Positions 3,215 to 23,397 of a stretch of DNA of 24,436 bases are shown here, piece by piece; position 1 is the stretch's first letter; each line of letters begins with the position of its first letter. This DNA is from a virus: positions 1 to 24,436 of IMG/VR virus record IMGVR_UViG_3300023179_000498; one strand, 5' to 3'. A program made the position numbers and the translations under genes. The notes beneath the pieces were generated by a model that saw only the letters and a list, made by a program, of their open reading frames with translations, was not told where the DNA came from and did no database searches.

Positions 3215-3284
3215 CATGGCTACAACAGGTTGACAGCCCCTAATCTTTTTGCTATTATACGAACATGACACGCACACACAGGAG
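3204..3284 (+). repeat. promoter-leader cassette, copy 2 of an imperfect direct repeat
   Basis: Second copy of the cassette at 2901-2979, differing by scattered substitutions and small indels downstream of the -35 box. Recombination between such copies would delete or insert the gene between them. Confidence 0.75.
3230..3258 (+). promoter_or_regulatory. sigma70-type promoter
   Basis: TTGACA at 3230-3235, 17 bases, TGC-TATTAT at 3253-3258. Predicted start near 3265, again at an ATG, here out of frame with the gene it drives. Confidence 0.85.
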
Positions 3285-3290
3285 CAGCAC

Positions 3291-3503
3291 ATGGGCTACC
3301 GAGTTTTGGGCAAGACCGCAGACCTATTCCAAGGCTTCGAGCAGCGCCGGGGCTTGGAGGGACCTTACATCTACTCAAACGGGCGAGTTCTTTACTACGA
3401 CCCCCGGGCAGGGCAATACTGGGATCCAAAGACAGACTTCTACGTGGCTCACAGCGAAGTCCACGATCTCCAAAACGATTTGATAAAGGCCTTGGCACAA
3501 TAG
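3291..3503 (+). CDS. 70-residue early protein of unknown function
   Basis: ATG 3291 with ACAGGAG at 3278-3284. The middle (YIYSNGRVLYYDPRAGQYWD, about 26-45) is a Tyr-rich beta-hairpin reminiscent of repeat units that bind ligands or sugars, followed by TDFYVAHSEV and a helix. This YYDP-x-AGQYWD pattern recurs in small phage proteins. No function can be assigned. The 64 bases after it carry no gene but contain an AGGAG and the leader of the next gene. Confidence 0.7.
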   Translation: MGYRVLGKTADLFQGFEQRRGLEGPYIYSNGRVLYYDPRAGQYWDPKTDFYVAHSEVHDLQNDLIKALAQ

Positions 3504-5438: not shown

Positions 5439-5465
5439 AAGCTATAGCGTTACACAAGCTATAGC
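5439..5465 (+). repeat. paired palindromes AAGCTATAGC
   Basis: AAGCTATAGC occurs at 5439-5448 and 5456-5465. Since GCTATAGC is itself a palindrome, the two copies can form an 8-bp stem across GTTACACAA or bind a symmetric protein. There is no T-run after it. Confidence 0.5.
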
Positions 5466-5546
5466 AATATGCATGCCAAATCTTCTCTCAAACCTCAAAA
5501 CTCACCCTAAAAAACCCCAACTTAGACTAGATCACCAGGCCCCGAG

Positions 5547-5568
5547 ATCTCAAGACCTTTGAGATTTT
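5547..5568 (+). terminator. intrinsic terminator of the early cluster
   Basis: ATCTCAA (5547-5553) pairs with TTGAGAT (5559-5565), followed by TTTT. It lies 120 bases after the last early gene and before the late gene at 5811. Confidence 0.6.
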
Positions 5569-5797
5569 GCGCGGCCAATTTTTACCACTATATAGACCGG
5601 TCCAAAAACTTCTGACCCCTCACTAGACCAGTTTTAAAATTTTTTTTTGCTAGAAAATTTTGCCCTCTGCATAGACCTCACTGTGCAGCACAGCATGATT
5701 AAACTGTGGTATTCAGAGTTGAAATAGAATTCTAAGAGTTAAAGTCATTCAAAAAAGTGCTACCGATTTTCTGCGCTCCGCGCCGGGTTGGGCCGCT

Positions 5798-5805
5798 GCT
5801 AAATA
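5798..5805 (+). promoter_or_regulatory. T4-type late promoter
   Basis: GCTAAATA matches the T4 late octamer TATAAATA in its last six bases. With T4 spacing, +1 falls on the A of the ATG at 5811. No -35 box or ribosome site is seen. Confidence 0.6.
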
Positions 5806-5810
5806 TCTTC

Positions 5811-7352
5811 ATGCCCACAATAGTTTTAACACAAGGTTCAAATACAACTGCTACCACATTTCTATCCGGAGCTCAGGCTGTTCATTATGATGCTAAATTC
5901 AATTATCTACGTTTCGGTTTAATTAACAACATAACCTATCTCAGCAATCCCAGTTATGAAATTGCACATCGTATCAACTACACTCCCAGAGTAAAGGACT
6001 CAGCCGGACAAAACTATGCAGATCGTAGGGCCTTAATCAGTCTAACCACACAGACCTATGCGACCAGTGCCTATATTGACAGTATATTTTCAAGTCAGGG
6101 AGTCACAGCATTTAGCGCATTTTCAGGCGGTTTTACCACGGCCACCAATGGCACAGCAGTGACCAGTGCATTCGGTGTAGGCTCAGTGGTTGCAGCCCTT
6201 ATTAAGACACGCAACATCATAGTACTAGGGCAGATCAGTGCCATACGCTATGTTAACAAAAACAGTGCTGGAGTACCCAGTGCAGGAACCTTTCGTTACT
6301 ACATTAAGAGTTGGACCAAGGGTCCGGTCAGTGACCTGACCAGAACCTACACCACTGATGAAGACTGTGTGTTCATACCCCATACCATAGCATCCACTCT
6401 AATAGCCAAGGGAGCCTTGCCCATTAGGCCTAACCTCGTTATGACCATTACACCTCAGCTGTTGCCCAATGCCTACACCAATACACAGTATGTGAGCACA
6501 CTCACAGTAAAAGGAGGTATAGGAAACTATTCTTGGAGTATTGAGGGGGATGGTCAATTGCCCAGCTCATTTATCACTACAACGAATGGCATCAATAACA
6601 GCAAATACACAATTTCTGGCACTACTCGTTCTACCACGGGCACCTTTGCCTTTACACTGTTGGTCACAGACAGCGACAGTCAAGGCCCGAATACCAAGAG
6701 TCAGGATTTTTTACTCACTCTTGAGGAAGAAAATCAAAACCCTGCCTACCTGGATCCCTATTTAGGTGGTTGGAGTTATGATCCGGCTGGGGGTGGTGGT
6801 GGTGAATGTTTCCCTGCAGGATCTATGGTCAGCTTGGCCAACGGTCTAGATAAACTCATAGAACAGGTACTAATAGGAGACCGTGTTCTGTCAGGCCTGG
6901 GCAGTATTGGTACAGTAAGTGCTCTGCGTAGAGTACGACTAGGCTCAAGAAAGGCCTATAGAATCAACAATAGGTTAGTTACCACAGGTGATCATCTGTT
7001 TAGAACACAGCAGGGATGGGCAGCGGTTCTGCCCAGTCTATACCATGATCTACGTTTTAACGTGCCCATGCAGGTCATGGGTCCGGATGGTTCAGTTACC
7101 TTATTGAGTAGTGCCATTGACCCCTGTCAAGTACACAAACTGGAAATTGGCACCCTAGTGCAGACCAAACATGGCTTAGAAGAGATACAATCAATTGAAG
7201 AACTAGACCTCGCTGCAGATCTTGAACTGTATTCGCTGGTTGTTCTTGATAGTCAAACCTTTGTGTGTGAAGGTTTTGTAGTGGATGGTGCACCTCAGAT
7301 TCAACAGCAAGATCATGCGAGCACTATGGGATTACCCGCCCTTGCCCTATAA
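5811..7352 (+). CDS. virion-type protein with Ig-like region and C-terminal Hint domain
   Basis: 513 residues from the ATG at 5811; an upstream in-frame GTG at 5757 is rejected because the late promoter lies between. Residues 1-200 are Thr/Ser/Asn-rich, as in tail or baseplate proteins. Residues 210-305 resemble a bacterial Ig-like (He_PIG) domain: PxxxPNAYTNTQY, GGIGNYSWSI, LPSSF, ISGTTRSTTGTFAF and VTDSDS. A glycine linker (327-331) leads to Cys333 of CFPAGSMV, the start of a Hint (Hedgehog/intein) domain with the block B motif T392-G-D-H395 and a final beta pair YSLVVLDSQTFVCEGFVVDG. The usual terminal His-Asn is missing (VVDGAP), so full splicing is unlikely; N-terminal cleavage or transfer at Cys333 is possible. 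It is probably a late structural protein. Confidence 0.8.
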   Translation: MPTIVLTQGSNTTATTFLSGAQAVHYDAKFNYLRFGLINNITYLSNPSYEIAHRINYTPRVKDSAGQNYADRRALISLTTQTYATSAYIDSIFSSQGVTAFSAFSGGFTTATNGTAVTSAFGVGSVVAALIKTRNIIVLGQISAIRYVNKNSAGVPSAGTFRYYIKSWTKGPVSDLTRTYTTDEDCVFIPHTIASTLIAKGALPIRPNLVMTITPQLLPNAYTNTQYVSTLTVKGGIGNYSWSIEGDGQLPSSFITTTNGINNSKYTISGTTRSTTGTFAFTLLVTDSDSQGPNTKSQDFLLTLEEENQNPAYLDPYLGGWSYDPAGGGGGECFPAGSMVSLANGLDKLIEQVLIGDRVLSGLGSIGTVSALRRVRLGSRKAYRINNRLVTTGDHLFRTQQGWAAVLPSLYHDLRFNVPMQVMGPDGSVTLLSSAIDPCQVHKLEIGTLVQTKHGLEEIQSIEELDLAADLELYSLVVLDSQTFVCEGFVVDGAPQIQQQDHASTMGLPALAL

Positions 7353-7569
7353 GGCCGTGGTTCCCTGGCCCTGTATTCAAACTCGGGGCAGTATAGACTG
7401 GCTTCAAAGTGTGGATCTAGTAGAATCCTGGCTAGAACACCATGTGGGTCCGCATTGGTCAGAGTGGACATGGAGCATGTGGAGTCTGCACAATCACTAT
7501 CTCTGTGCGGTGAGTTTTAGGCGCGAATCTAACTGTAGTCTATTTTTACTGCGTTTCAGTCAAGGCTAA
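7315..7569 (+). CDS. 84-residue Trp-rich protein overlapping the Hint gene
   Basis: The frame opens at ATG 7315 (MRALWDYPPLPYKAVVPWP) and overlaps the last 38 bases of the Hint protein gene; an in-frame ATG at 7285 is an alternative. It contains eight Trp, including a WSEWTWSMW cluster at about 46-54, and no recognisable domain. No good ribosome site is visible, so translation would rely on coupling to the upstream gene. It converges with, and overlaps by 14 bases, the minus-strand nucleotidyltransferase gene. It could be a partner of the Hint protein, but function is unknown. Confidence 0.5.
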   Translation: MRALWDYPPLPYKAVVPWPCIQTRGSIDWLQSVDLVESWLEHHVGPHWSEWTWSMWSLHNHYLCAVSFRRESNCSLFLLRFSQG

Positions 7570-8242
7570 GACTCTGAGTAATCAAGTGTTCTACCTGATC
7601 CTGTAGTAGTTCTGTGAGTTTGTGATTGCGTAGATGTTTGTAGACTATGTTGGCTGTGGAGTACTCTCCTTGAGTTGAGGCCAAGCCCAGTTTACGATAG
7701 GATCGCAGCAGTTTCAATGTAGATTGGCTAAGATCCAGCTGTCTGCGTTCCAGCACAGCACTGAGTATGATTTCCCAGGCTGCGATTTCTGTTCTTACTG
7801 CCTCGGTGTCTATACGGGGGTTAACACGCTGCGGTCGATTGATCCAGCGATCCTGTTTGACACTGTAGAGTCCTTGACTTACACCTGGATGACCTTGATC
7901 TTCTACGTATAAGGTCACAGGTATACCATAGATAGTAACGGGTCGCTGCTGTTCATAGCGTAGACGTTTTACGTCAAACAGTTCTTCCAATTCTCTATCA
8001 CAGTCTGTGTCTGCATAGTCTGTTATAATGTGCAGGTCCATATCACTGTGTGGACCATAGTTATAGTTCACCATAGAGCCTGTGATCACTATGTCTATGA
8101 TGGGGAATTCAACTTCAGTGTATTTGACAAAGTCACGGGCTATACGCAGCAGCGCTCCTCGCACACTGTTTTTGAGTTTGCCCCTGGCTTCCCACAGTTT
8201 GGGGTTCAGTGTGGCCTGTGGTTCAAAGTCATAAGCTTGCAT
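7556..8242 (-). CDS. nucleotidyltransferase (DNA polymerase beta superfamily type)
   Basis: 228 residues. Residues 48-72 read PIIDIVITGSMVNYNYGPHSDMDL: G55-S56 and then D67-x-D69 are the GS...DxD signature of the pol-beta-type nucleotidyltransferase fold. A later strand VTLYVED (109-115) could supply the third carboxylate. The C-terminal 100 residues are helical, as in proteins that adenylylate or uridylylate RNA or protein partners. Genes of this type are common in T4-type marine phages, substrate unknown. A perfect T4 late promoter octamer lies 8 bases before the ATG, so expression is probably late. Divergent from the gene at 8272. Confidence 0.8.
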   Translation of the reverse strand: MQAYDFEPQATLNPKLWEARGKLKNSVRGALLRIARDFVKYTEVEFPIIDIVITGSMVNYNYGPHSDMDLHIITDYADTDCDRELEELFDVKRLRYEQQRPVTIYGIPVTLYVEDQGHPGVSQGLYSVKQDRWINRPQRVNPRIDTEAVRTEIAAWEIILSAVLERRQLDLSQSTLKLLRSYRKLGLASTQGEYSTANIVYKHLRNHKLTELLQDQVEHLITQSLSLD

Positions 8243-8249
8243 AGATAGA

Positions 8250-8257
8250 TATTTATA
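8250..8257 (-). promoter_or_regulatory. T4-type late promoter (exact octamer)
   Basis: Read on the minus strand this is TATAAATA, the exact T4 late promoter consensus. With T4 spacing, +1 is at 8244, two bases before the ATG at 8242. Confidence 0.8.
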
Positions 8258-8258
8258 G

Positions 8259-8266
8259 TGTAAATA
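8259..8266 (+). promoter_or_regulatory. T4-type late promoter
   Basis: TGTAAATA, seven of eight matches to the late octamer, directly back-to-back with the minus-strand late promoter. Predicted +1 is 8272, the A of the ATG itself. Confidence 0.65.
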
Positions 8267-8271
8267 TCAAT

Positions 8272-8838
8272 ATGGAAAACAGTTATCTAGGCAAACTCAT
8301 AGTGGCCAATCCCAGGAACCCCAAGGACAACCTTGAAAAAAGCGTCTTGATCGTGGTCACACACACAGCTAGAACCAGCATAGCACTACAGATAAACATG
8401 CCCCATGATAGCCTTACTCTAAGCAAGATCAGTGAAAACATAGGCATAGATCATGACGGAGATCAGCCCATATATTATGGCGGTACCGTAAATTCTCACA
8501 AGATTCACATCATACACAGTCTAGACTGGGCAGGTGTGAGCACGGTCAAACTCACAGATCAAATAGGCATAACCAATGATGTCAGTGTGCTCATGGCCAT
8601 AAGCAGTGGTGAAGGCCCCCAACACTTTAAGGCCTGTAGTGGTTACTATCTCTGGGACAATGGCATGTTGGATCTGCAGATCGATCCTACAAGTGTAATC
8701 CCTGGTGGTGCTGCTGGCAATCACAGGTGGGGCACCCTAGATGCCACCATAGGAAATACATTTTTAACTGAACCACATCAGATGTGGCCCCTGTGTCTAG
8801 ATCGGTTTCTAGCAGATCGTATCAGCGTGTATATGTGA
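8272..8838 (+). CDS. YqgE/AlgH-family protein
   Basis: 188 residues. The start YLGKLIVANPRNPKDNLEKSVLIVVTHTARTSIALQINMP matches the family opening (a loading of LIA-P, then SV-h-h-v-H, then G-h-h-hN-P). PIYYGGTVNSHKIHIIHS (about 65-82) matches the P-h-Y-GG-V motif, and KACSGYYLWDNGMLDLQI (about 122-139) matches the G...W..GQL-E segment. Bacterial members (YqgE, AlgH) are small single-domain proteins with no clear enzymatic role. A phage copy with a late promoter is unusual; its role is unknown. The plus-strand stop directly abuts the stop of the minus-strand helicase. Confidence 0.8.
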   Translation: MENSYLGKLIVANPRNPKDNLEKSVLIVVTHTARTSIALQINMPHDSLTLSKISENIGIDHDGDQPIYYGGTVNSHKIHIIHSLDWAGVSTVKLTDQIGITNDVSVLMAISSGEGPQHFKACSGYYLWDNGMLDLQIDPTSVIPGGAAGNHRWGTLDATIGNTFLTEPHQMWPLCLDRFLADRISVYM

Positions 8839-8846
8839 CTAGTCAC
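8835..8846. repeat. 12-bp perfect palindrome at converging stop codons
   Basis: GTGACTAGTCAC contains TGA (8836-8838), the stop of the plus gene, and CTA (8839-8841), the TAG stop of the minus gene. The two genes meet with no base between them. Confidence 0.6.
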
Positions 8847-10290
8847 GTTCCGGATTTAGATGTGACAACATATTTCTAATAGCTGGTGCTGTCTTTTGCG
8901 GAAGTTTGAGTTTGGTCGCACTTGATCCTTCTTTGGGATTGGCCACTCTCAGCATTTCTCCAGAATCAGGATCCGCTGTGCTCGCTGTGGATACCACACT
9001 GGTCCGTCGCAACATATTTGTCGTACTGCCGCGTTGCTGGGCCAAACTGTCTTGATCTTCTTCATTTAGATCTGTGATACGCAGAGTTTCCACATTGAAT
9101 TCTAGGTCTACCTTTTGCCCCACGCCCGAACTTGAGCGTGTCTTCATAAACTGTATTTGATAGCGTCCCCGTTCTTTCATGGCTCTTGAGGTAAAGATAC
9201 CTATCACATTGTCCGCAGTTTGAATCTTGCTCAGCCCTCCAGAAATATGACTGTGATCAAATTCAATTTCTTCTACGGCCGCACGATTAAGCTGGCTGGC
9301 TGTCACTGTGAGGCACTGTGTTTCCATGGCTAGGTTACGAATCTCTTCACTGACATATTTGTCTTTGACAAACAGATCGGAGGGCGATACCTTCACTGAC
9401 AAAGGCATCATTAAATCGAGGTAATCTATTAACAAAACGTCTGGTTTTCGGCCTTTTTTGACCTGATATTCTTTCAAATATGACCTTAAATCGTTGCAAT
9501 TTTTACCTGACGGCATATACTTGATCTGTATGCTTCCCGAACGTTTTTCCAGCATTTTTACCTTAAGTTCTACGTCATCTAGACTGCGAAAAATCTCTCT
9601 GGTTGATATGCCTGTGGTCATAGAATCCAGTCGCATGGCCACTAGATTTTCACTGAGTTCAAAAGTTAGATAGACCACATTAAGACCCATCATGGCCCAG
9701 TTTACGCCTAGATTGGCCAGGAATAGACTTTTACCTCCCCCCGATGCTGCGGCAAAGATATTGAGTTCTCCGCGATTAAATCCGCCATATAGTTTCTTGT
9801 CCACTGACGGCCAGCCTGTGCTGACCTGTCCGTTTGAGTTTTTAAGCAGTTCCAGTCTAGCTCTAGGATCTTGAAAATAGTCTGTGCCCATGTCTCTGTT
9901 CAAGCTGATCTGTATAGCGTCCTTGATCAGTTTTTCCACAGGATTGTATTCTCCAGTTTGCAGCAGTTCTGCGCTCTTAAGAATTGCCTGTTCCAAAGCC
10001 TTGTGTCTAGCAAAGCGTTCAAAGGTATCTATGAGCCAGTCATACATTTCACTGGGATATGTTTTAGTCTCAAGACATAGACCTGTGCTAGATTCTATAA
10101 TCTTCACATCCGGCATGATCTTGTACTGATCCACAAAATTATCTATAAACTCTGCTGCGGATCGCAGACGTTGATCAAAATTGCTAGGATTAAAAATGTT
10201 CTGACAGCGAGCAAATGAATCTGCATCACTGAGAAACATTTCTAAGAACTGTAGCTGTTGTTCATAGCTGTAGTTAGTTTGAGGTTTCAT
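8839..10290 (-). CDS. 41: replicative DNA helicase, gp41/DnaB type
   Basis: 483 residues. The RecA-like motor has Walker A AASGGGKS at 181-188, a catalytic Glu in LTFELSEN (Glu211) and Walker B DVLLIDYLD from 284. TASQLNR around 338-345 is the DnaB-family motif H3 region, and a late QFMKTRSSSGVG block holds the arginine finger. The N-terminal 130 residues are helical, as in DnaB and T4 gp41. It would unwind DNA at the fork, loaded with the primase encoded just upstream (17-base overlap with it). The 60-residue C-terminal tail is Thr/Ser-rich and unusually long. It is transcribed toward, and ends exactly at, the YqgE-like gene. Confidence 0.92.
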   Translation of the reverse strand: MKPQTNYSYEQQLQFLEMFLSDADSFARCQNIFNPSNFDQRLRSAAEFIDNFVDQYKIMPDVKIIESSTGLCLETKTYPSEMYDWLIDTFERFARHKALEQAILKSAELLQTGEYNPVEKLIKDAIQISLNRDMGTDYFQDPRARLELLKNSNGQVSTGWPSVDKKLYGGFNRGELNIFAAASGGGKSLFLANLGVNWAMMGLNVVYLTFELSENLVAMRLDSMTTGISTREIFRSLDDVELKVKMLEKRSGSIQIKYMPSGKNCNDLRSYLKEYQVKKGRKPDVLLIDYLDLMMPLSVKVSPSDLFVKDKYVSEEIRNLAMETQCLTVTASQLNRAAVEEIEFDHSHISGGLSKIQTADNVIGIFTSRAMKERGRYQIQFMKTRSSSGVGQKVDLEFNVETLRITDLNEEDQDSLAQQRGSTTNMLRRTSVVSTASTADPDSGEMLRVANPKEGSSATKLKLPQKTAPAIRNMLSHLNPERD

Positions 10291-11281
10291 ATTCTATTTT
10301 TTTCTTAAGTAGTTGCTGTTTAATTGGATTAGTTTCTTTATAGTGCAGTATTGTTGCCAAGGTATAGAGTCTACCATATTGAGTGACCGCATCTGCTGTG
10401 TCCTTGATCTGTTCTGTCCATGGAGGCACACTCACTGACCAACCGTATTCTAGAGCATTGTCTATTAATTTAGCCCCTGCACGATCTCTATCAGGTACAA
10501 CTATGACTTCACGATTCAAGCTCTGTATTCTTGAGGCCTGGGCAGAATTGCATTCATTGTTCAATATGGCCACACCGTCTATGGCTATGGCATCAAATGG
10601 GCCTTCTACCACTATCACATATTTTCTTCTGGCTGTCTGTGCATCAAGATTGAAAACATAGGATGGTTGACTATCTGAAATATATTTGGGCTTGCCTGCT
10701 GTGATTTTTCTTGCGGTATAACCTACTATTTTATCTTGATAGTAAAAAGGGATTACCACTCTATCTCTATAACCCGGTGCATCGCTTGCGTGCCAAGCAT
10801 ACCAATCTAGTTCAAAGCGTCTTGTTGCCAGATAAGCCACAATGTTGAACAATCTTTGTTCTTGTTCCGGATCATGTTTAATACTCAGCAGTTCTTTAAG
10901 ATTTTGGCTATTTAAGGGCAATTGTTTTTGAATAAGATCAAAACTAAATTCACGTTTTGCACTGGGTTGATTATCTTTGACTTTGAGAGTATATAGGTTA
11001 AGTCTGCCTATATCATCTTGATTCATACCTAGATATTTGAATAAATCTTTGGTATTCTTACTGAGTAATTTACCCTGACTCCAACCTGCTTTGAAACCAC
11101 AATTAAAGCAGTGATATTGAAATCCGTCATTGGCATTGAGCAATATACCACCGCGTTTTTTAGTATCTCTGCTTTCTCCTCTGTTTGAGCAGCAGGGAGC
11201 GTTGAAGCTGGTCCATCCACTGGGTGTAGATTTACGTTTAGTGGGTAAGACTGCTAGCAGTGCTGACTGAATTTCGTTCAC
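10274..11281 (-). CDS. 61: DNA primase, gp61 type
   Basis: 335 residues with a GTG start at 11281. An N-terminal zinc-binding module uses Cys30/Cys31 and His57, Cys58, Cys61 (FQYHCFNCGFKAGW). The TOPRIM catalytic core has VVEGPFDAI (Glu226) and VVPDRDRAG (Asp264, Asp266), the acidic triad of T4 gp61 and DnaG. It makes RNA primers for lagging-strand synthesis together with the gp41 helicase encoded next. Ribosome signal before the GTG is weak, so coupling to the preceding virion-type gene is possible. A GTG start is uncertain, but no better ATG lies nearby. Confidence 0.9.
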   Translation of the reverse strand: MNEIQSALLAVLPTKRKSTPSGWTSFNAPCCSNRGESRDTKKRGGILLNANDGFQYHCFNCGFKAGWSQGKLLSKNTKDLFKYLGMNQDDIGRLNLYTLKVKDNQPSAKREFSFDLIQKQLPLNSQNLKELLSIKHDPEQEQRLFNIVAYLATRRFELDWYAWHASDAPGYRDRVVIPFYYQDKIVGYTARKITAGKPKYISDSQPSYVFNLDAQTARRKYVIVVEGPFDAIAIDGVAILNNECNSAQASRIQSLNREVIVVPDRDRAGAKLIDNALEYGWSVSVPPWTEQIKDTADAVTQYGRLYTLATILHYKETNPIKQQLLKKKIEYETSN

Positions 11282-11290
11282 ACTGAAAGT

Positions 11291-12121
11291 TTAACTTCTG
11301 TATAAGATTTTGTCAAATGATCCGTAGTAGGCAGAATTGTCATTATCTGATTCTGCAGGTGCCGTGGCCGGCACAAACATAAACCTTGTGTAGGTAAATA
11401 CACCATTCCAATTCACATAATCAATGCCTGTGTATTGGTCATATGTTCTAGTAGATATGGTTGTATATTTGCCAAAGCCTGCAGGTGTGTTAGAAAGTGT
11501 GCCCTGTATGTAGAGTGTTCCCCTATAGCCTGTGAGATAAACTGCGGCAGTGTGTAGCGCAGTGTTGCCGTTGTATTCCGGATAGGCATAGACGTTTCCA
11601 CTCTTGTGTTCATAGAGATTGGTGTCGGGATTCATGCTTTTAGGAAAAGCTGTAATCGTTTGACTTGGTTGAAGAACAGGTTGAACATCATTGAGAACCT
11701 GTGCAGTGCCTGCCACACCATAGTAGGTATTGGCATAGGTGGGAGAATAGGTACCGTCTTGATTTTGAACCTTAATATTAAACCTATAGTTAGATTTGTC
11801 AAGGTCCAAGGTATCGTTCTCAGTCAAGGTCAATAGTGCCAGACCTCGTGTAGCAGTATTTGTTTCCAATATTTCTAAGGGTTTTTCAACAACCAGTTTG
11901 TTGGACATAGCATCTATTAGACTAAACACAAATGTATGAGTGCTTATAGCAATTCTTTTTTGATCACTATTTTTGAACTGGAACCTAATATCATTCCTAA
12001 TACCTTTTTGAATGTGAAGTTCTCGTTGATACATAGACCTATAAGCTCCTATCACCATGGTGTCCAAATCTAGTGTAACATCCAGAATATTGGGATATAA
12101 ATAGATTGGTATATTTTGCAT
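11291..12121 (-). CDS. probable virion/baseplate protein
   Basis: 276 residues, Thr/Asn/Tyr-rich. Residues 30-130 have the layout of BppU-type baseplate N-terminal domains: a charged segment with IRFQFKN, a strand FVFSLIDAMSNKLV, then LTLTENDTLDLDKSNYRFNIKVQNQDG. The C-terminal half repeats short aromatic strands (GYRGTLYIQGTL, YTTISTRTYDQYTG) like receptor-binding or fibre proteins. A late-type promoter lies directly upstream. Its position in front of primase and helicase is unusual, and late transcripts could extend into them. The structural assignment is inferred from composition and promoter, not a firm family match. Confidence 0.65.
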   Translation of the reverse strand: MQNIPIYLYPNILDVTLDLDTMVIGAYRSMYQRELHIQKGIRNDIRFQFKNSDQKRIAISTHTFVFSLIDAMSNKLVVEKPLEILETNTATRGLALLTLTENDTLDLDKSNYRFNIKVQNQDGTYSPTYANTYYGVAGTAQVLNDVQPVLQPSQTITAFPKSMNPDTNLYEHKSGNVYAYPEYNGNTALHTAAVYLTGYRGTLYIQGTLSNTPAGFGKYTTISTRTYDQYTGIDYVNWNGVFTYTRFMFVPATAPAESDNDNSAYYGSFDKILYRS

Positions 12122-12127
12122 AACAAA

Positions 12128-12135
12128 TATTTATT
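12128..12135 (-). promoter_or_regulatory. T4-type late promoter
   Basis: On the minus strand AATAAATA, seven of eight matches to TATAAATA, within a TAAATAAATA run. Predicted +1 is 12122, one base before the ATG at 12121. Confidence 0.65.
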
Positions 12136-12138
12136 TAG

Positions 12139-12522
12139 ATGTCAGTTCATAGTTCTTTCCAAGAAAATTATCCTTTTATATCCTGTATCAGATCTAATGA
12201 TGTAGAATATGTTGGAATTATCATTAATTTTGATAATTCAGTTGCCAGCATCTACGATATTGGAGGCCTACGCAATGATGAAGAAAGAACTAAATTTCTA
12301 GAACTTGGAGAGGTTTGGTGGTGGGAAAGTAATCGTAAAATACCTATTAACATTTTTCTCAAAAAAGAAATGCATATTTTTCGTACATTAATTAAAACAT
12401 TTAACAGCAAAGATATTGAAGTTATTTTTGGTCCTATCACTAACCTAGGCGATATTGCCGAAAAACGCATAAAACGCAAATCAATACAGTTAGTTAGAAT
12501 TCCTAAGAATATTCATGGCTGA
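12139..12522 (+). CDS. 127-residue protein of unknown function
   Basis: ATG 12139 is divergent from the virion-type gene, separated by 17 AT-rich bases. The product begins with a beta-rich segment (FISCIRSNDVEYVGIIINFDNSVASIYDI, about 13-41), then EVWWWESN at 58-65, then a long basic helix-rich part ending KRIKRKSIQLVRIPKN. It has a high Ile/Lys/Asn content in line with the AT-rich right half. No ribosome site or late octamer in its own orientation is seen. It converges with the DnaE-like gene and overlaps it by 20 bases. No function is recognised; intact length and codon pattern support a real gene. Confidence 0.65.
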   Translation: MSVHSSFQENYPFISCIRSNDVEYVGIIINFDNSVASIYDIGGLRNDEERTKFLELGEVWWWESNRKIPINIFLKKEMHIFRTLIKTFNSKDIEVIFGPITNLGDIAEKRIKRKSIQLVRIPKNIHG

Positions 12523-13081: not shown

Positions 13082-13460
13082 GATCTGTTAGTTGACTGTC
13101 ACCAGGCAAAATTCTATAATTATCTTCTTCGCTATCCGGTGTTGATACTTCAATAATTGTACCTTCTTCTAGACAGATAACCTGATGTGGAAATAATGGA
13201 GGATTATGCCAAGTGTCACCAACTGATAAGATTTTTTCGTGCAGCACAGCAGTAACAGTATCTATGTATTTTAAAATAAATTTTCCTTCTAACACATACC
13301 ATGTTTCATCTTTTTGGGCATGGAAATGCATACTGAATTTTGCGTCTTTGTTGAACTTTAGGAATTTACCACAGTATTTGTCGTTGGTGCACCAAATTAG
13401 CTCATGTCCCCATTTTTTTGGTCTCATACCTTGGTATCGCGTTAACTTAGTGTTTTGCAT
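13074..13460 (-). CDS. cupin-domain protein
   Basis: 128 residues forming one cupin barrel: FSMHFHAQKDETWYVLEG (43-59) is motif 1 with His45, His47 and Glu52, and NPPLFPHQV (86-94) gives the second-motif His92, the usual four metal ligands. The opening RPKKWGHELIW resembles mannose-6-phosphate-isomerase-type and sugar-pathway cupins. Its place inside the heptose operon, between the HldE kinase and the DnaE-like gene, suggests it modifies or binds a sugar phosphate or nucleotide sugar. It overlaps the kinase gene by 14 bases. Exact reaction unknown. Confidence 0.8.
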   Translation of the reverse strand: MQNTKLTRYQGMRPKKWGHELIWCTNDKYCGKFLKFNKDAKFSMHFHAQKDETWYVLEGKFILKYIDTVTAVLHEKILSVGDTWHNPPLFPHQVICLEEGTIIEVSTPDSEEDNYRILPGDSQLTDHA

Positions 13461-14205
13461 TCTGTATCTCTTCTAAAGTTGGAGCGTAGTTACCTCTACG
13501 CTGTGCTGTTATTCCTGCAGCCTGGTTAGCAAATACTATACTTTCTTCTAATTTTCCTGTCAATAGAAAACTATATGTTAAGGCTGATAAGAAGGTATCT
13601 CCGCAGCCACAAACATCTGTTACTGCTACTGGTTTGGTCGGTATTACCCTTTCTTGATCTAATTTCTTTAACATGGCTCCTTCACTGCCTTTGGTTACTA
13701 TTAGGTAATCGGGAATAGATGAACATTGATTGTATTCGTGTTCGTTAATTTTTATCATTACATGGTCCGCATTAAATCTCCTAAGGTCCGTTTTTTTTGT
13801 ATCAATAAAAATTGGACATTTAAATTTTAAAATACAATGTTCAATATGTTCATAGGATAAGAATCCTTTGTTATAATCTGAAATTACTAGAGCATCATAA
13901 TTTGTAGAATAATAGGTTTGATGCCACGGCACTGTTACAGGTTCGTTGTCTACTCTCAATAACTGTTGTCCAGATTTTTTGTCTATGTATCTGGTTTTAG
14001 TAATTAATGATGTGTTGGTTATAAAATCTACAAATAGCCCAAATCTTTCTAAATTTAATTTTACATTTGCAGCCATACCTGGTAGACGTGTTTCGTCGAT
14101 ATTTTTTAACACAGGTACAGGAGCTTCTGGACTGAGTCTGTCAACAGATCCAGTCATATACACATCTATACAACTATCCCCTATCAATAATACGTTGAAT
14201 AACAT
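13447..14205 (-). CDS. HldE/RfaE kinase domain (heptose-7-phosphate kinase type, PfkB family)
   Basis: 252 residues. LIGDSCIDVYMTGSVDRLSPEAPVPVL (7-33) is the diagnostic RfaE/HldE domain I opening, GMAANVKLNLERFG (43-56) is the PfkB nucleoside/sugar-binding motif, and DVCGCGDTF (197-205) holds the anion hole and catalytic Asp203. The family phosphorylates D-glycero-beta-D-manno-heptose 7-phosphate at C1. It is shorter than the usual HldE kinase domain (about 310-330), the loss lying in the middle lid region. In bacteria it is usually fused to the nucleotidyltransferase; here the two are separate, overlapping genes. Confidence 0.85.
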   Translation of the reverse strand: MLFNVLLIGDSCIDVYMTGSVDRLSPEAPVPVLKNIDETRLPGMAANVKLNLERFGLFVDFITNTSLITKTRYIDKKSGQQLLRVDNEPVTVPWHQTYYSTNYDALVISDYNKGFLSYEHIEHCILKFKCPIFIDTKKTDLRRFNADHVMIKINEHEYNQCSSIPDYLIVTKGSEGAMLKKLDQERVIPTKPVAVTDVCGCGDTFLSALTYSFLLTGKLEESIVFANQAAGITAQRRGNYAPTLEEIQNAKH

Positions 14206-14575
14206 TTGTGGTTGAGTATTTTTCTAGTCTATCAAAGAATTCAATTTTTTTACAGAATTCTCTACCTATTATTGGTTTATCTTTATAATCTGATCCTTTG
14301 ATCATTAGATCTGGTTGGATATTTTTTAACAGATCACGAAGCTCCTCATCGGTATCAAATATATCTACTCTATCTATGCTTTTTAATTCAAACAGTAAAG
14401 TTGAACGTTCATATTCCGTATGTATTGGTCTTTGGTATCCTTTAAGTTCTCTTATGCGCCTATCACTGTCAATCAATACATGAACATAAGAATTTACAAA
14501 TGATCTAGCATGTCTAAATAATCTAATATGACCAAGATGTAATATGTCAAATGTTCCATTAATGGCTATTTTCAT
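14174..14575 (-). CDS. HldE-type heptose-1-phosphate nucleotidyltransferase
   Basis: 133 residues. NGTFDILHLGHIRLF (6-20) is the cytidylyltransferase signature GxFDxxHxGH, KGYQRPI (46-52) and IKGSDYKDKPIIG (93-105) match domain II of HldE, and the end KYSTTNVIQRI parallels the ISSTxII-x-RI nucleotide-binding motif. It would join heptose 1-phosphate to ATP, giving ADP-heptose. It overlaps HldD upstream as ATGA and the kinase gene downstream by 32 bases. Confidence 0.88.
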   Translation of the reverse strand: MKIAINGTFDILHLGHIRLFRHARSFVNSYVHVLIDSDRRIRELKGYQRPIHTEYERSTLLFELKSIDRVDIFDTDEELRDLLKNIQPDLMIKGSDYKDKPIIGREFCKKIEFFDRLEKYSTTNVIQRIIDRG

Positions 14576-15345
14576 AACTGGTAATGTAGGCTTAATCGTG
14601 TTGTATCTGCACAGGTGTATCTTTGATACTGTTTTTTTACATTCTCTGGCATTGGTATGTATTCGATGACTGCTTCATACTTATCGGCAATTTCTCTAGC
14701 AACCTGTTCAAATGATTGTGTCTTTCCAGTGCCTACATTCCATATACCCGATTCTTTTACTGTAAAGAATTTTTTATGTATATCAATTAGCTTATCAACG
14801 TGAATAAAGTCTCTATGAAAGTTTTCAGATCCTTCAAATAATCGAATTACACCTGTTTCTTTGGCCTGCTTTTCAAATTTGTAAAATGGGCTGGCCTGCG
14901 AACCTTTATGATCTTCACCCGGACCGTAGACATTAAAATATCTAAAACCTTGAACTACAATATCTCTATACTGTTGACCAGCTGAAACTCTATCGAAAAG
15001 ATACTTGCTCCAAGCATAGGGACTTTGGGGACTAATTGGACCATCCTCTCTAAATTCTTCTAGCTGGCCATACACACTGGCTGAACTGGCATACTGTAGA
15101 TTAACCTTGGCCATTTGACAGGCTACCAACAGCATACAGGTAAAGTCATAATTTTGTTTAAGTATTTTTTCTACATCTGTCTCTGTAGTCGATGAAATGG
15201 CTCCTAGATGTATACACCAATCTAATCCTTCAAAGTCCGGTAAAGGTTGACCCCAATTATAAAGAACTAGGTCATGTTCGTGCTTCAGAGCATTCAGCAT
15301 ATTTTGCCCAATGAAACCTTTATAACCTGTAAGCAATATTTTCAT
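14572..15345 (-). CDS. hldD: ADP-heptose epimerase (HldD/RfaD type)
   Basis: 257 residues. GYKGFIGQN (7-15) is the dinucleotide-binding glycine motif; HLGAISSTTETD (46-57), YASSASVYG (85-93) and GFRYFNVYGPGEDHKGSQASPFYKF (about 132-156) are characteristic of HldD, with Tyr110 and Lys114 (YAWSK) as the extended-SDR catalytic pair. HldD converts ADP-D-glycero-D-manno-heptose to the L-glycero form used in LPS inner core. It is about 50 residues shorter than the usual 310. It overlaps both neighbours as ATGA. Confidence 0.88.
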   Translation of the reverse strand: MKILLTGYKGFIGQNMLNALKHEHDLVLYNWGQPLPDFEGLDWCIHLGAISSTTETDVEKILKQNYDFTCMLLVACQMAKVNLQYASSASVYGQLEEFREDGPISPQSPYAWSKYLFDRVSAGQQYRDIVVQGFRYFNVYGPGEDHKGSQASPFYKFEKQAKETGVIRLFEGSENFHRDFIHVDKLIDIHKKFFTVKESGIWNVGTGKTQSFEQVAREIADKYEAVIEYIPMPENVKKQYQRYTCADTTRLSLHYQL

Positions 15346-17689: not shown

Positions 17690-19152
17690 TATTGATATTT
17701 TACCTTTTGTAATTCAAAGGGATATAAGGCTTCTTTATAAAATTTCTTTCGTTCTGTGAGGTGTCTCTTTGCATATTTTGTGGAAGCTGTAAGATCCCAA
17801 ATTTGTACGAAGTCTTTATCTTGAGCTCGTCTAATACCTCTGCCAATTGATTGTATAACCCTAATAAAGCTTTTTCCGGGCTCCAAAAGAACCAAATTAA
17901 AAATACGAGGGATATTAATACCCACAGCGGCCACACCATAAGTCGCCACAATAATCTTGTTATCAGCAATCTGAATTTCATCATATTCTTCTTTACGATC
18001 TTTGCTTTTTACTCTCCCGGATATAAACACTGCATCTGTAAGATTTTTCGTTAGAAATTCTCCGCTTTCTATTCTATCAACCAATACAAGCGTGTTACCG
18101 GATTTAGATATACTCTGTACTGTATTAGCAATATATGCCATTCTATCCGAATCGGTTACAAGAAATTTAAGTTCTTCGGCATAGCTGCCAAATTCTTTCC
18201 ACTCTGCTGTTTGAACAATATTTACATGACATTGTGCTAGAACACCTTTTTCTTGCAACTCGTGTGCCGCTACTCTATGAACAACTTCTCCTAGACTGGC
18301 ACGCAGACTTTGGAACTCAAAATCCTCTTTGGGCACAGTTCCTGTTAGTCCCCAACGTATAGGGGCATGATTAAAATTATGTGTCAATAGTTTTTTAAGA
18401 ACTTCGGCCTTGGCCATATGAACCTCATCTACCATGACACATCTTACACCTTCAAGTAATTCTGCCAACGTAGTGATTTCGTCATTTTCTTGGCGGTTTT
18501 TTGATTTTTTGTCTAAAATATTCAAACTTTGCCAAGTGCATATAGTGTGTGTTTTTCCTAATTCTTTTCGATCACCATAGTAAACACCCACATCTAATTC
18601 TACATTAATAAAGTCTTCTTCCGTTTGTTCTACTAAACTTTTGTTAGGTACAATAATCACAGTTTTTCCGTATTTTTCACAGATTTTTGCCAAAGTTGCA
18701 GTGGTTATGGTTTTTCCAAAACCAGTGGCAATTTCCTGTATACACTGTGGATTTGACAAAAACTTATTGATTACTTCGACTTGATCGTCACGTAGTCTAA
18801 TAGGATTACCTTCAAACCTGTGTCCTTTAGGCCATGATTTTCCATCCCAAAAATCACCGGAAATCTCATCAAATTTTAGGTCAAATGCAGACCTATGATC
18901 TTCTAGTTCAATGTAGTAATTTTTACTTTCTAAAAATTCTAGAACCTGAGGCAACATACTAAGATATGTAGTTCCACCAAGGCCAAAAAAACTCACAGAC
19001 CCATCCCATCTACCCAGTTTATATGATGGTCTATACCTAGCAGTAGGGTCTTCGTACTTGAATTTTTTGACCAGAGACTTTCTTGTGTCAAGATCTAGAT
19101 TTTCTATCTTGACATTGACTTCGTCTTTGATTACAATTTTACAGGATGCCAA
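17689..19152 (-). CDS. uvsW: UvsW-type DNA/RNA helicase
   Basis: 487 residues with a TTG start at 19152, supported by AGGAA about 10 bases upstream and by an N-terminus matching the small UvsW domain (RYRPSYKLGRWDGSVSFF, 40-57). Walker A ATGFGKT is at 142-148, the DEVH box at 242-245, the SF2 motif III TGTVPKE near 280, and motif VI QSIGRGIRR near 445. UvsW unwinds branched DNA and R-loops and drives the switch to recombination-dependent replication. Overlaps the HARP-like gene by 14 bases. TTG rather than ATG start suggests coupling or reduced expression. Confidence 0.92.
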   Translation of the reverse strand: MASCKIVIKDEVNVKIENLDLDTRKSLVKKFKYEDPTARYRPSYKLGRWDGSVSFFGLGGTTYLSMLPQVLEFLESKNYYIELEDHRSAFDLKFDEISGDFWDGKSWPKGHRFEGNPIRLRDDQVEVINKFLSNPQCIQEIATGFGKTITTATLAKICEKYGKTVIIVPNKSLVEQTEEDFINVELDVGVYYGDRKELGKTHTICTWQSLNILDKKSKNRQENDEITTLAELLEGVRCVMVDEVHMAKAEVLKKLLTHNFNHAPIRWGLTGTVPKEDFEFQSLRASLGEVVHRVAAHELQEKGVLAQCHVNIVQTAEWKEFGSYAEELKFLVTDSDRMAYIANTVQSISKSGNTLVLVDRIESGEFLTKNLTDAVFISGRVKSKDRKEEYDEIQIADNKIIVATYGVAAVGINIPRIFNLVLLEPGKSFIRVIQSIGRGIRRAQDKDFVQIWDLTASTKYAKRHLTERKKFYKEALYPFELQKVKYQ

Positions 19153-23343: not shown

Positions 23344-23369
23344 AGTGCGTATATATTAATATACGCACT
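23344..23369 (-). terminator. 11-bp perfect hairpin between the radical SAM gene and gp32
   Basis: AGTGCGTATAT (23344-23354) pairs with ATATACGCACT (23359-23369) across ATTA. On the minus strand it follows the radical SAM gene and is followed by CTTTCTTTCT, not a pure T-run. It overlaps the -10 of the gp32 promoter, so it may act as terminator, promoter stem-loop or mRNA leader structure. Confidence 0.6.
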
Positions 23370-23386
23370 TTTATTTAGTATGTCAA
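23358..23386 (-). promoter_or_regulatory. sigma70-type promoter for gp32
   Basis: On the minus strand TTGACA (23386-23381), 17 bases, TATATT (23363-23358). Predicted +1 is near 23351, inside the left arm of the hairpin, so this transcript carries only part of it. Confidence 0.75.
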
Positions 23387-23389
23387 CTC

Positions 23390-23397
23390 TATTTATA
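23390..23397 (-). promoter_or_regulatory. T4-type late promoter for gp32 (exact octamer)
   Basis: Minus-strand TATAAATA, exact. Predicted +1 at 23384 gives a leader of about 110 bases containing the whole hairpin 23344-23369, unlike the early promoter. Confidence 0.75.

Follow-up and report, generated by a model that had tools for sequence, protein, structure and literature searches.

We analysed a stretch of 24,436 bases (the window), which is the full IMG/VR record IMGVR_UViG_3300023179_000498 and a fragment of the genome of a T4-related phage, and deal here with late-type promoter boxes with the core TAAATA that lie only a few nucleotides (nt) in front of start codons. The minus strand of the window carries replication genes, namely for a gp41-type helicase, a primase, a UvsW-type helicase, UvsX and gp32-type proteins. 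By nucleotide comparison no close DNA match of the window was found among isolated phages, and the nearest isolates, judged by the helicase, are PA5oct and Atu_ph07 with ~52% identity. The window has no match in Rfam. A first-pass annotation had pointed to four such boxes, and all four are found at the positions claimed, 5, 7, 5 and 6 nt before ATG codons. The boxes and the genes behind them are as follows.

5798-5805, plus strand: late-type box GCTAAATA, 5 nt before the ATG at 5811
5811-7352, plus strand: open reading frame (ORF) for a 513-residue protein without PHROG match, predicted leaderless late gene
7556-8242, minus strand: predicted leaderless late gene for a 228-residue protein, phrog_36119 (unknown function); its orthologues in the related genomes G001-G004 are 37-39% identical
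8257-8250, minus strand: late box TATAAATA of the gene 7556-8242, 7 nt before the ATG at 8242; orthologues at spacing 5-7
8259-8266, plus strand: late box TGTAAATA of the gene 8272-8838, 5 nt before the ATG at 8272; orthologues at spacing 4-5
8272-8838, plus strand: predicted leaderless late gene for a 188-residue protein of unknown function; its orthologues in G001-G004 are 28-39% identical
8240-8274, both strands: predicted bidirectional leaderless module CAT-N7-TATTTA-N5-TAAATA-N5-ATG
11291-12121, minus strand: gene for a virion structural protein, phrog_14467 (PHROG E = 8e-9), predicted leaderless late gene; initial methionine and N-terminus conserved in homologues
12135-12128, minus strand: late box AATAAATA, 6 nt before the ATG at 12121; box and a spacing of 4-6 nt kept in the clade homologues L005-L018

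In T4 the late box lies at -13 to -6 relative to the transcription start (PMC2988020). When this spacing is applied, the predicted +1 falls 0, 2, 0 and 1 nt from the ATG for the four boxes, in agreement with the first-pass annotation, which had also denied these genes a ribosome site. This too is borne out, the best duplex with the anti-Shine-Dalgarno sequence being only -2.1 kcal/mol before the ATG at 5811 and 0 before the other three, compared with -4.6 to -7.9 kcal/mol for seven other genes of the window. The hexamer TAAATA is not over-represented in the window (20 found, 26.6 expected), and the same holds for TATAAATA, whereas four ORFs have TAAATA at spacing 5-7 where ~0.3 are expected (P = 3e-4). 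It is thus the position of the box and not its frequency which is unusual in the window. The two bases preceding TAAATA are GC, TA, TG and AA, and the clade is purine-rich at -12. An overlapping TCTAAATA at 12132-12139 was rejected as a functional box, as the 82% identical locus L005 lacks it but keeps AATAAATA. The site at 5798 is the least certain of the four, since the base in front of its box is atypical and no orthologue was detected, and at this single site a placement by chance is possible.

We propose, with a probability of about 0.83, that these boxes are T4-type late promoters placed so that the mRNA starts at or near the A of the start codon and the late mRNA is leaderless. The boxes would be used by the host RNA polymerase together with a phage-encoded sigma factor of the gp55 type, transcription would start at the A of the start codon or no more than ~3 nt from it, and translation would proceed from a 5′-terminal AUG without pairing to a Shine-Dalgarno (SD) sequence. 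The clade would have two conserved modes, a leaderless one with the box 4-7 nt before the ATG and a leadered one with typically 16-45 nt and a strong SD. Where two genes diverge, both could be served by one module of ~33 bp, with its two boxes set back to back and each directing transcription outward to its own ATG.

When the structural gene 11291-12121 was used as the query of a scan, 19 loci were obtained, among them those on G001 (354,680 bp) and G002 (193,746 bp). The simple gene caller had mis-started this gene, and its start was judged by direct reading and from the homologues. Throughout the clade homologues L005-L018, (A)TAAATA is retained 4-6 nt upstream of the ATG, and the sequence of the spacer is variable. 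Four distant homologues (L020-L023) have the box ~18 nt upstream along with an AAAGAAA stretch, and L019 is back at 5 nt. Gene starts in the genome-wide counts come from the simple caller; for seven leaderless-class genes inspected in HTVC008M, an isolated Pelagibacter phage, the deposited annotation agrees. The spectrum of TAAATA-N(k)-ATG is sharply peaked at k = 5 with 21 genes in G001, 15 in G002 and 6 in G003, where at most ~1 is expected, and the peak is also present in G004 and in HTVC008M (12 genes, among them those at 6280, 7562, 11972 and 18943 and the divergent one at 18916). Three contigs read from the four largest new ones, which had been picked by the DNA module alone, show it as well: G010 with 39 and G011 with 43 genes (~1 expected) and G009 with 19 (first 400 kb, 59% GC). 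In seven other genomes the peaks at spacing 5 are non-random with P from 1e-8 to 1e-48. In the window clade, with 46 occurrences where 3.4 are expected, TAAATA is moreover the top-ranked hexamer exactly 5 nt before the ATG, and so it is in HTVC008M, G009, G010 and G011; in T4 it has rank 463.

No peak at spacing 5 was seen in T4, KVP40, the two cyanophages Syn9 and S-PM2, RaK2, PA5oct or Atu_ph07. Most of these phages have instead a hump at ~19-38 nt, that is, ordinary leaders: the peak lies at k = 28 in T4, near 30 in KVP40, near 20-28 in Syn9 and S-PM2 and near 29-38 in RaK2, and PA5oct is broad. KVP40 has no TAAATA at spacing 5 before any ORF of 60 codons, and in T4 no called gene has the box 4-7 nt before its ATG. 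The contrast with T4 drawn by the first-pass annotation is therefore well founded, since T4 lacks the peak and its late genes are leadered. As the nearest isolates Atu_ph07 and PA5oct are without it, the predicted leaderless class does not simply follow helicase relatedness. Atu_ph07, a phage without the leaderless late class, encodes translation initiation factor IF3 (L059, 244-747); at high levels IF3 inhibits translation of leaderless mRNA (PMC9031893).

Among the called genes we assigned those with TAAATA 4-7 nt before the start to the leaderless class and those with the box 8-45 nt upstream to the leadered class. The two classes differ in their use of SD. In the leaderless class an SD is found in 7% of the genes of G001 (n = 30), 4% in G002 (n = 23) and 0% in G003 (n = 7), compared with 70%, 76% and 62% of the leadered box genes and 47%, 52% and 38% of the remaining genes. 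ATG is the start codon of 65 of the 67 leaderless-class genes in the window and G001-G004. When genes of G002 and G001 are paired as reciprocal best matches, 15/19 leaderless and 15/16 leadered genes fall into the same class in both genomes, and in 13 of the 15 leaderless pairs the initial methionines align. G009 uses SD and has both classes as well. In the relatives that use SD the predicted leaderless and leadered late genes thus coexist gene by gene. It is only in G010 and G011 that predicted leaderless late genes prevail. SD is scarce throughout these two genomes (5-11%), and their leaderless classes hold 75 and 76 genes. On these two gp55-bearing contigs of ~200 kb (L243-L262) TAAATA lies 4-8 nt before the start in ~75 genes each.

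The first-pass annotation had taken leaderless late mRNA for a general rule in this phage. Its leaderless or near-leaderless part is supported by the comparison with the relatives. The general rule has to be rejected, since about half of the late-box genes in G001, G002 and G003 have ordinary leaders with a strong SD; the phenomenon itself stands. Also the window has a late box at ordinary distance:

12096-12103, plus strand: late box TATAAATA of a leadered gene without SD, 35 nt before the ATG at 12139

Orthologues of this gene have the box at 37 nt (G002) and 41 nt (G003), so that one leadered late gene would do without an SD.

The leaderless class comprises the genes for the terminase large subunit, a head-tail adaptor, a second tail-tube protein, a tail-spike-like protein and virion proteins, and across the genomes also portal, tape measure, tail proteins, DNA end protector and head closure. 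In these phages late structural genes are thus found under the box, as is characteristic of T4-type late promoters. Tail sheath and tail tube are among the leadered genes. The gene of the major capsid protein is preceded by an AAGGAG site, with no box next to it. A rule by which low-copy proteins are leaderless and abundant ones leadered, as could be drawn from terminase and adaptor versus sheath and tube in G002, is not claimed, because the portal of HTVC008M is low-copy and leadered.

A pyrimidine at -1 and a purine at +1 are the usual signature of a bacterial transcription start. In the window clade the base before the ATG is a pyrimidine in 42/42 spacing-5 genes and in 11/11 spacing-7 genes, compared with 244/507 (48%) of the other genes; for the whole leaderless class against the other genes the difference has a Fisher P of 4e-11. 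Leadered late promoters have a purine 6 nt after the box, at the position where transcription begins in T4, in 21/27 cases in T4, 27/34 in KVP40 and 21/21 in Syn9. At spacing 5 the A of the ATG occupies this very position and always follows a pyrimidine. We infer that the 5′ end of the mRNA would lie at the A of the AUG and that ribosomes would initiate there. The same bases bear on the question whether the mRNAs have short real leaders of 1-3 nt, being near-leaderless instead of strictly leaderless. A purine stands 5 nt after the box in 9/11 spacing-7 genes, and the leadered promoters of the clade are A-rich at this position. In the spacing-5 genes, which are the largest class, a purine is never found at -1, and we regard short leaders in place of strictly leaderless mRNAs as unlikely.

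Leaderless-class genes differ from the others also in their position on the genome. A divergent upstream neighbour is found for 86/258 of them and for 143/1457 other genes (P = 4e-20), and a same-strand upstream gap below 5 nt in 13/172 compared with 646/1314 (P = 4e-29). By position these predicted leaderless genes start transcription units. The terminase gene and a tail-tube paralogue lie directly behind intrinsic terminators, which leaves ~20 nt up to the ATG for box and spacer. A gp55 homologue is encoded by G001 (E = 7e-27), and the gp55-type late sigma family phrog_234 is present in G001, HTVC008M, G008, G009, G010 and G011; all four of the largest contigs found by the DNA module alone encode gp55. 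By analogy with T4 (PMC2988020) we infer that gp55 would read the box.

These observations also bear on two readings in which the box is no promoter. If TAAATA acted in translation, as an AT-rich signal close to the start codon, and transcription began elsewhere, this would be of use in G010 and G011, where another start signal would help given the scarce SD. Such a signal accords poorly with genes that avoid operon-internal and favour divergent positions, with terminators directly upstream of some of them, with boxes standing back to back in divergent pairs, with a box further upstream along with an SD before other genes of the same phages and with gp55 on contigs picked by the module alone, and we consider it quite improbable. 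Leaderless mRNA could also result from RNA processing, with upstream transcription starts and cutting near UAAAUA. Some of the mapped 5′ ends of T4 late transcripts may indeed be cuts, as primer extension cannot separate cuts from starts (PMC2988020). The intrinsic terminators upstream, the divergent ATGs only ~28 bp apart and the pyrimidine signature at -1 oppose this possibility, to which we give very little credence. That an AT-rich hexamer came to lie close to start codons by chance, for which only the lack of over-representation in the window alone would speak, is hardly credible, and for the clade it is refuted by the peaks at spacing 5, the first rank of the hexamer and its conservation by orthologue.

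Several points weigh against late promoters starting at the start codon. The spacing-4 group does not follow the pyrimidine rule at -1 (3/9), and in the spacing-7 genes a purine 3 nt upstream offers an alternative start, which would allow leaders of 1-3 nt. Because of these two groups the honest range for the predicted leader is 0-3 nt. The two bases before TAAATA depart from the T4 octamer, so that positions -13 and -12 are relaxed. Moreover, gp55 is neither in the window, which is a fragment, nor was it found in the G002 record, and an iterated profile search of G001 revealed neither gp33 nor gp45; both are present in HTVC008M.

The first-pass annotation had treated the boxes at 8250 (minus) and 8259 (plus) as separate sites. 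The sites as such stand, but together they form one divergent module, their octamers being one base apart. In G001, G002 and G003 both late boxes are retained at the orthologues of the gene pair 7556-8242 and 8272-8838. For the gene at 8272 the direct IMG/VR scan gave no relatives, and its orthologues were reached via G001-G004. The two-sided layout also occurs in G001-G004 and in HTVC008M, where the annotated genes are those of the DNA end protector and head closure. It was not found in T4, KVP40, the cyanophages, RaK2, PA5oct or PAU. The strict form of the module, CAT-N5-TATTTA-N5-TAAATA-N5-ATG, gave 64 hits in IMG/VR contigs. In 59 of these each ATG begins an ORF that is at least 50 residues long or is cut by the end of the contig; both -1 bases are pyrimidines in 54 of the 59. 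A control with scrambled boxes gave 17 hits, none of them with two ORFs (0/17). Module loci include genes for a head-tail adaptor, virion structural proteins, a baseplate tail tube cap and a 2-oxoglutarate (2OG) oxygenase. Sequence and gene layout are those of two putative divergent promoters in one short module.

T4-type late genes are taught as being led by an SD. T4-type late promoters, served by gp55, gp33, gp45 and the host RNA polymerase, are classical (PMC2988020) and share with the present boxes the TAAATA core, the position relative to +1, a gp55 homologue (here in the relatives) and the late structural genes; they differ by leader and SD. Leaderless genes of Actinobacteria and Deinococcus-Thermus likewise have a -10 element just before the start codon and no SD, and a TANNNT box ~12 bp before the start has been used to predict leaderless bacterial genes (PMC3160421). 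In the clade a -10-type box ~12 bp before the start codon goes along with a missing SD, which would qualify these genes as leaderless by the same measure. The bacterial genes, however, use the host sigma70, whereas here a phage late sigma would act, in phages most of which use SD for the rest of their genes. The late motif ATAAATA of the jumbo phage CBB resembles our boxes as a TAAATA-type box before structural genes in a phage with a gp55-like sigma and without gp33 or gp45 found; the accessible part of that report mentions no leaderless placement (PMC5259590), and the related RaK2 has leadered late boxes. Leaderless translation by 70S ribosomes at a 5′-terminal AUG is established, and lambda cI mRNA is a phage mRNA translated in this way (PMC9031893), though it concerns a single repressor gene and not a class of late structural genes. 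In the late promoters of phiKZ (PMC7598289) TATG overlaps the start site, so that ATG letters coincide with the transcription start as here, but phiKZ uses its own phage-encoded RNA polymerase, and its transcripts have their +1 at the G of TATG rather than at the A of a start codon. In pelagimyophages, earlier efforts to identify late promoters were unsuccessful (PMC7029224); the isolate HTVC008M shows the leaderless pattern clearly.

Taken together, it is likely that T4-type late transcription has a second mode, widespread in aquatic and jumbo phages, in which gp55 promoters start exactly on the start codon and yield leaderless late mRNA, two at a time from the 33-bp bidirectional modules, and that in phages which use SD for other genes the split between leaderless and SD-led late genes is conserved gene by gene. 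No report of leaderless gp55-type late transcription was found in a limited open-access library, most subscription papers lying outside it, and priority is not proven. If this holds, the existence of a conserved leaderless class implies initiation on a bare 5′ AUG for key virion genes of many T4-type phages, independently of the SD used by their own early genes, and one could test why a phage initiates some of its late proteins by one route and the others by another. TAAATA-N5-ATG in which the base before the ATG is a pyrimidine would further be a precise motif for late promoters and for the correction of start codons in uncultured phages, and the 33-bp module a compact natural divergent promoter.

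Some other features of the window deserve mention. A near-identical block of a sigma70-like early promoter and leader (TTGACAG...TTTTTGCTATTATACGA...ACACACAGGAGCA) is repeated on the plus strand at 2389-2451, 2928-2990 and 3228-3293 before successive small early genes. It appears to supply these genes with SD leaders, in contrast to the late genes. Between the early plus-strand genes and the first late box there are ~350 gene-free bases with long T runs (5450-5797). On the minus strand at 13447-15345 the replication module contains kinase, cytidylyltransferase-like and epimerase-like genes, named by eye from their translations, which resemble ADP-heptose-type sugar synthesis (HldE/HldD-like). 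Finally, two late-type boxes on the minus strand (region 23347-23397), TATAAATA at 23397-23390 and TAAATA at 23377-23372, lie ~100-116 nt before the gene of a gp32-type single-stranded DNA-binding protein. They are followed, in the predicted leader, by a perfect 11-bp hairpin (fold z = -3.8), and this leader is reminiscent of the structured leader of T4 gene 32.

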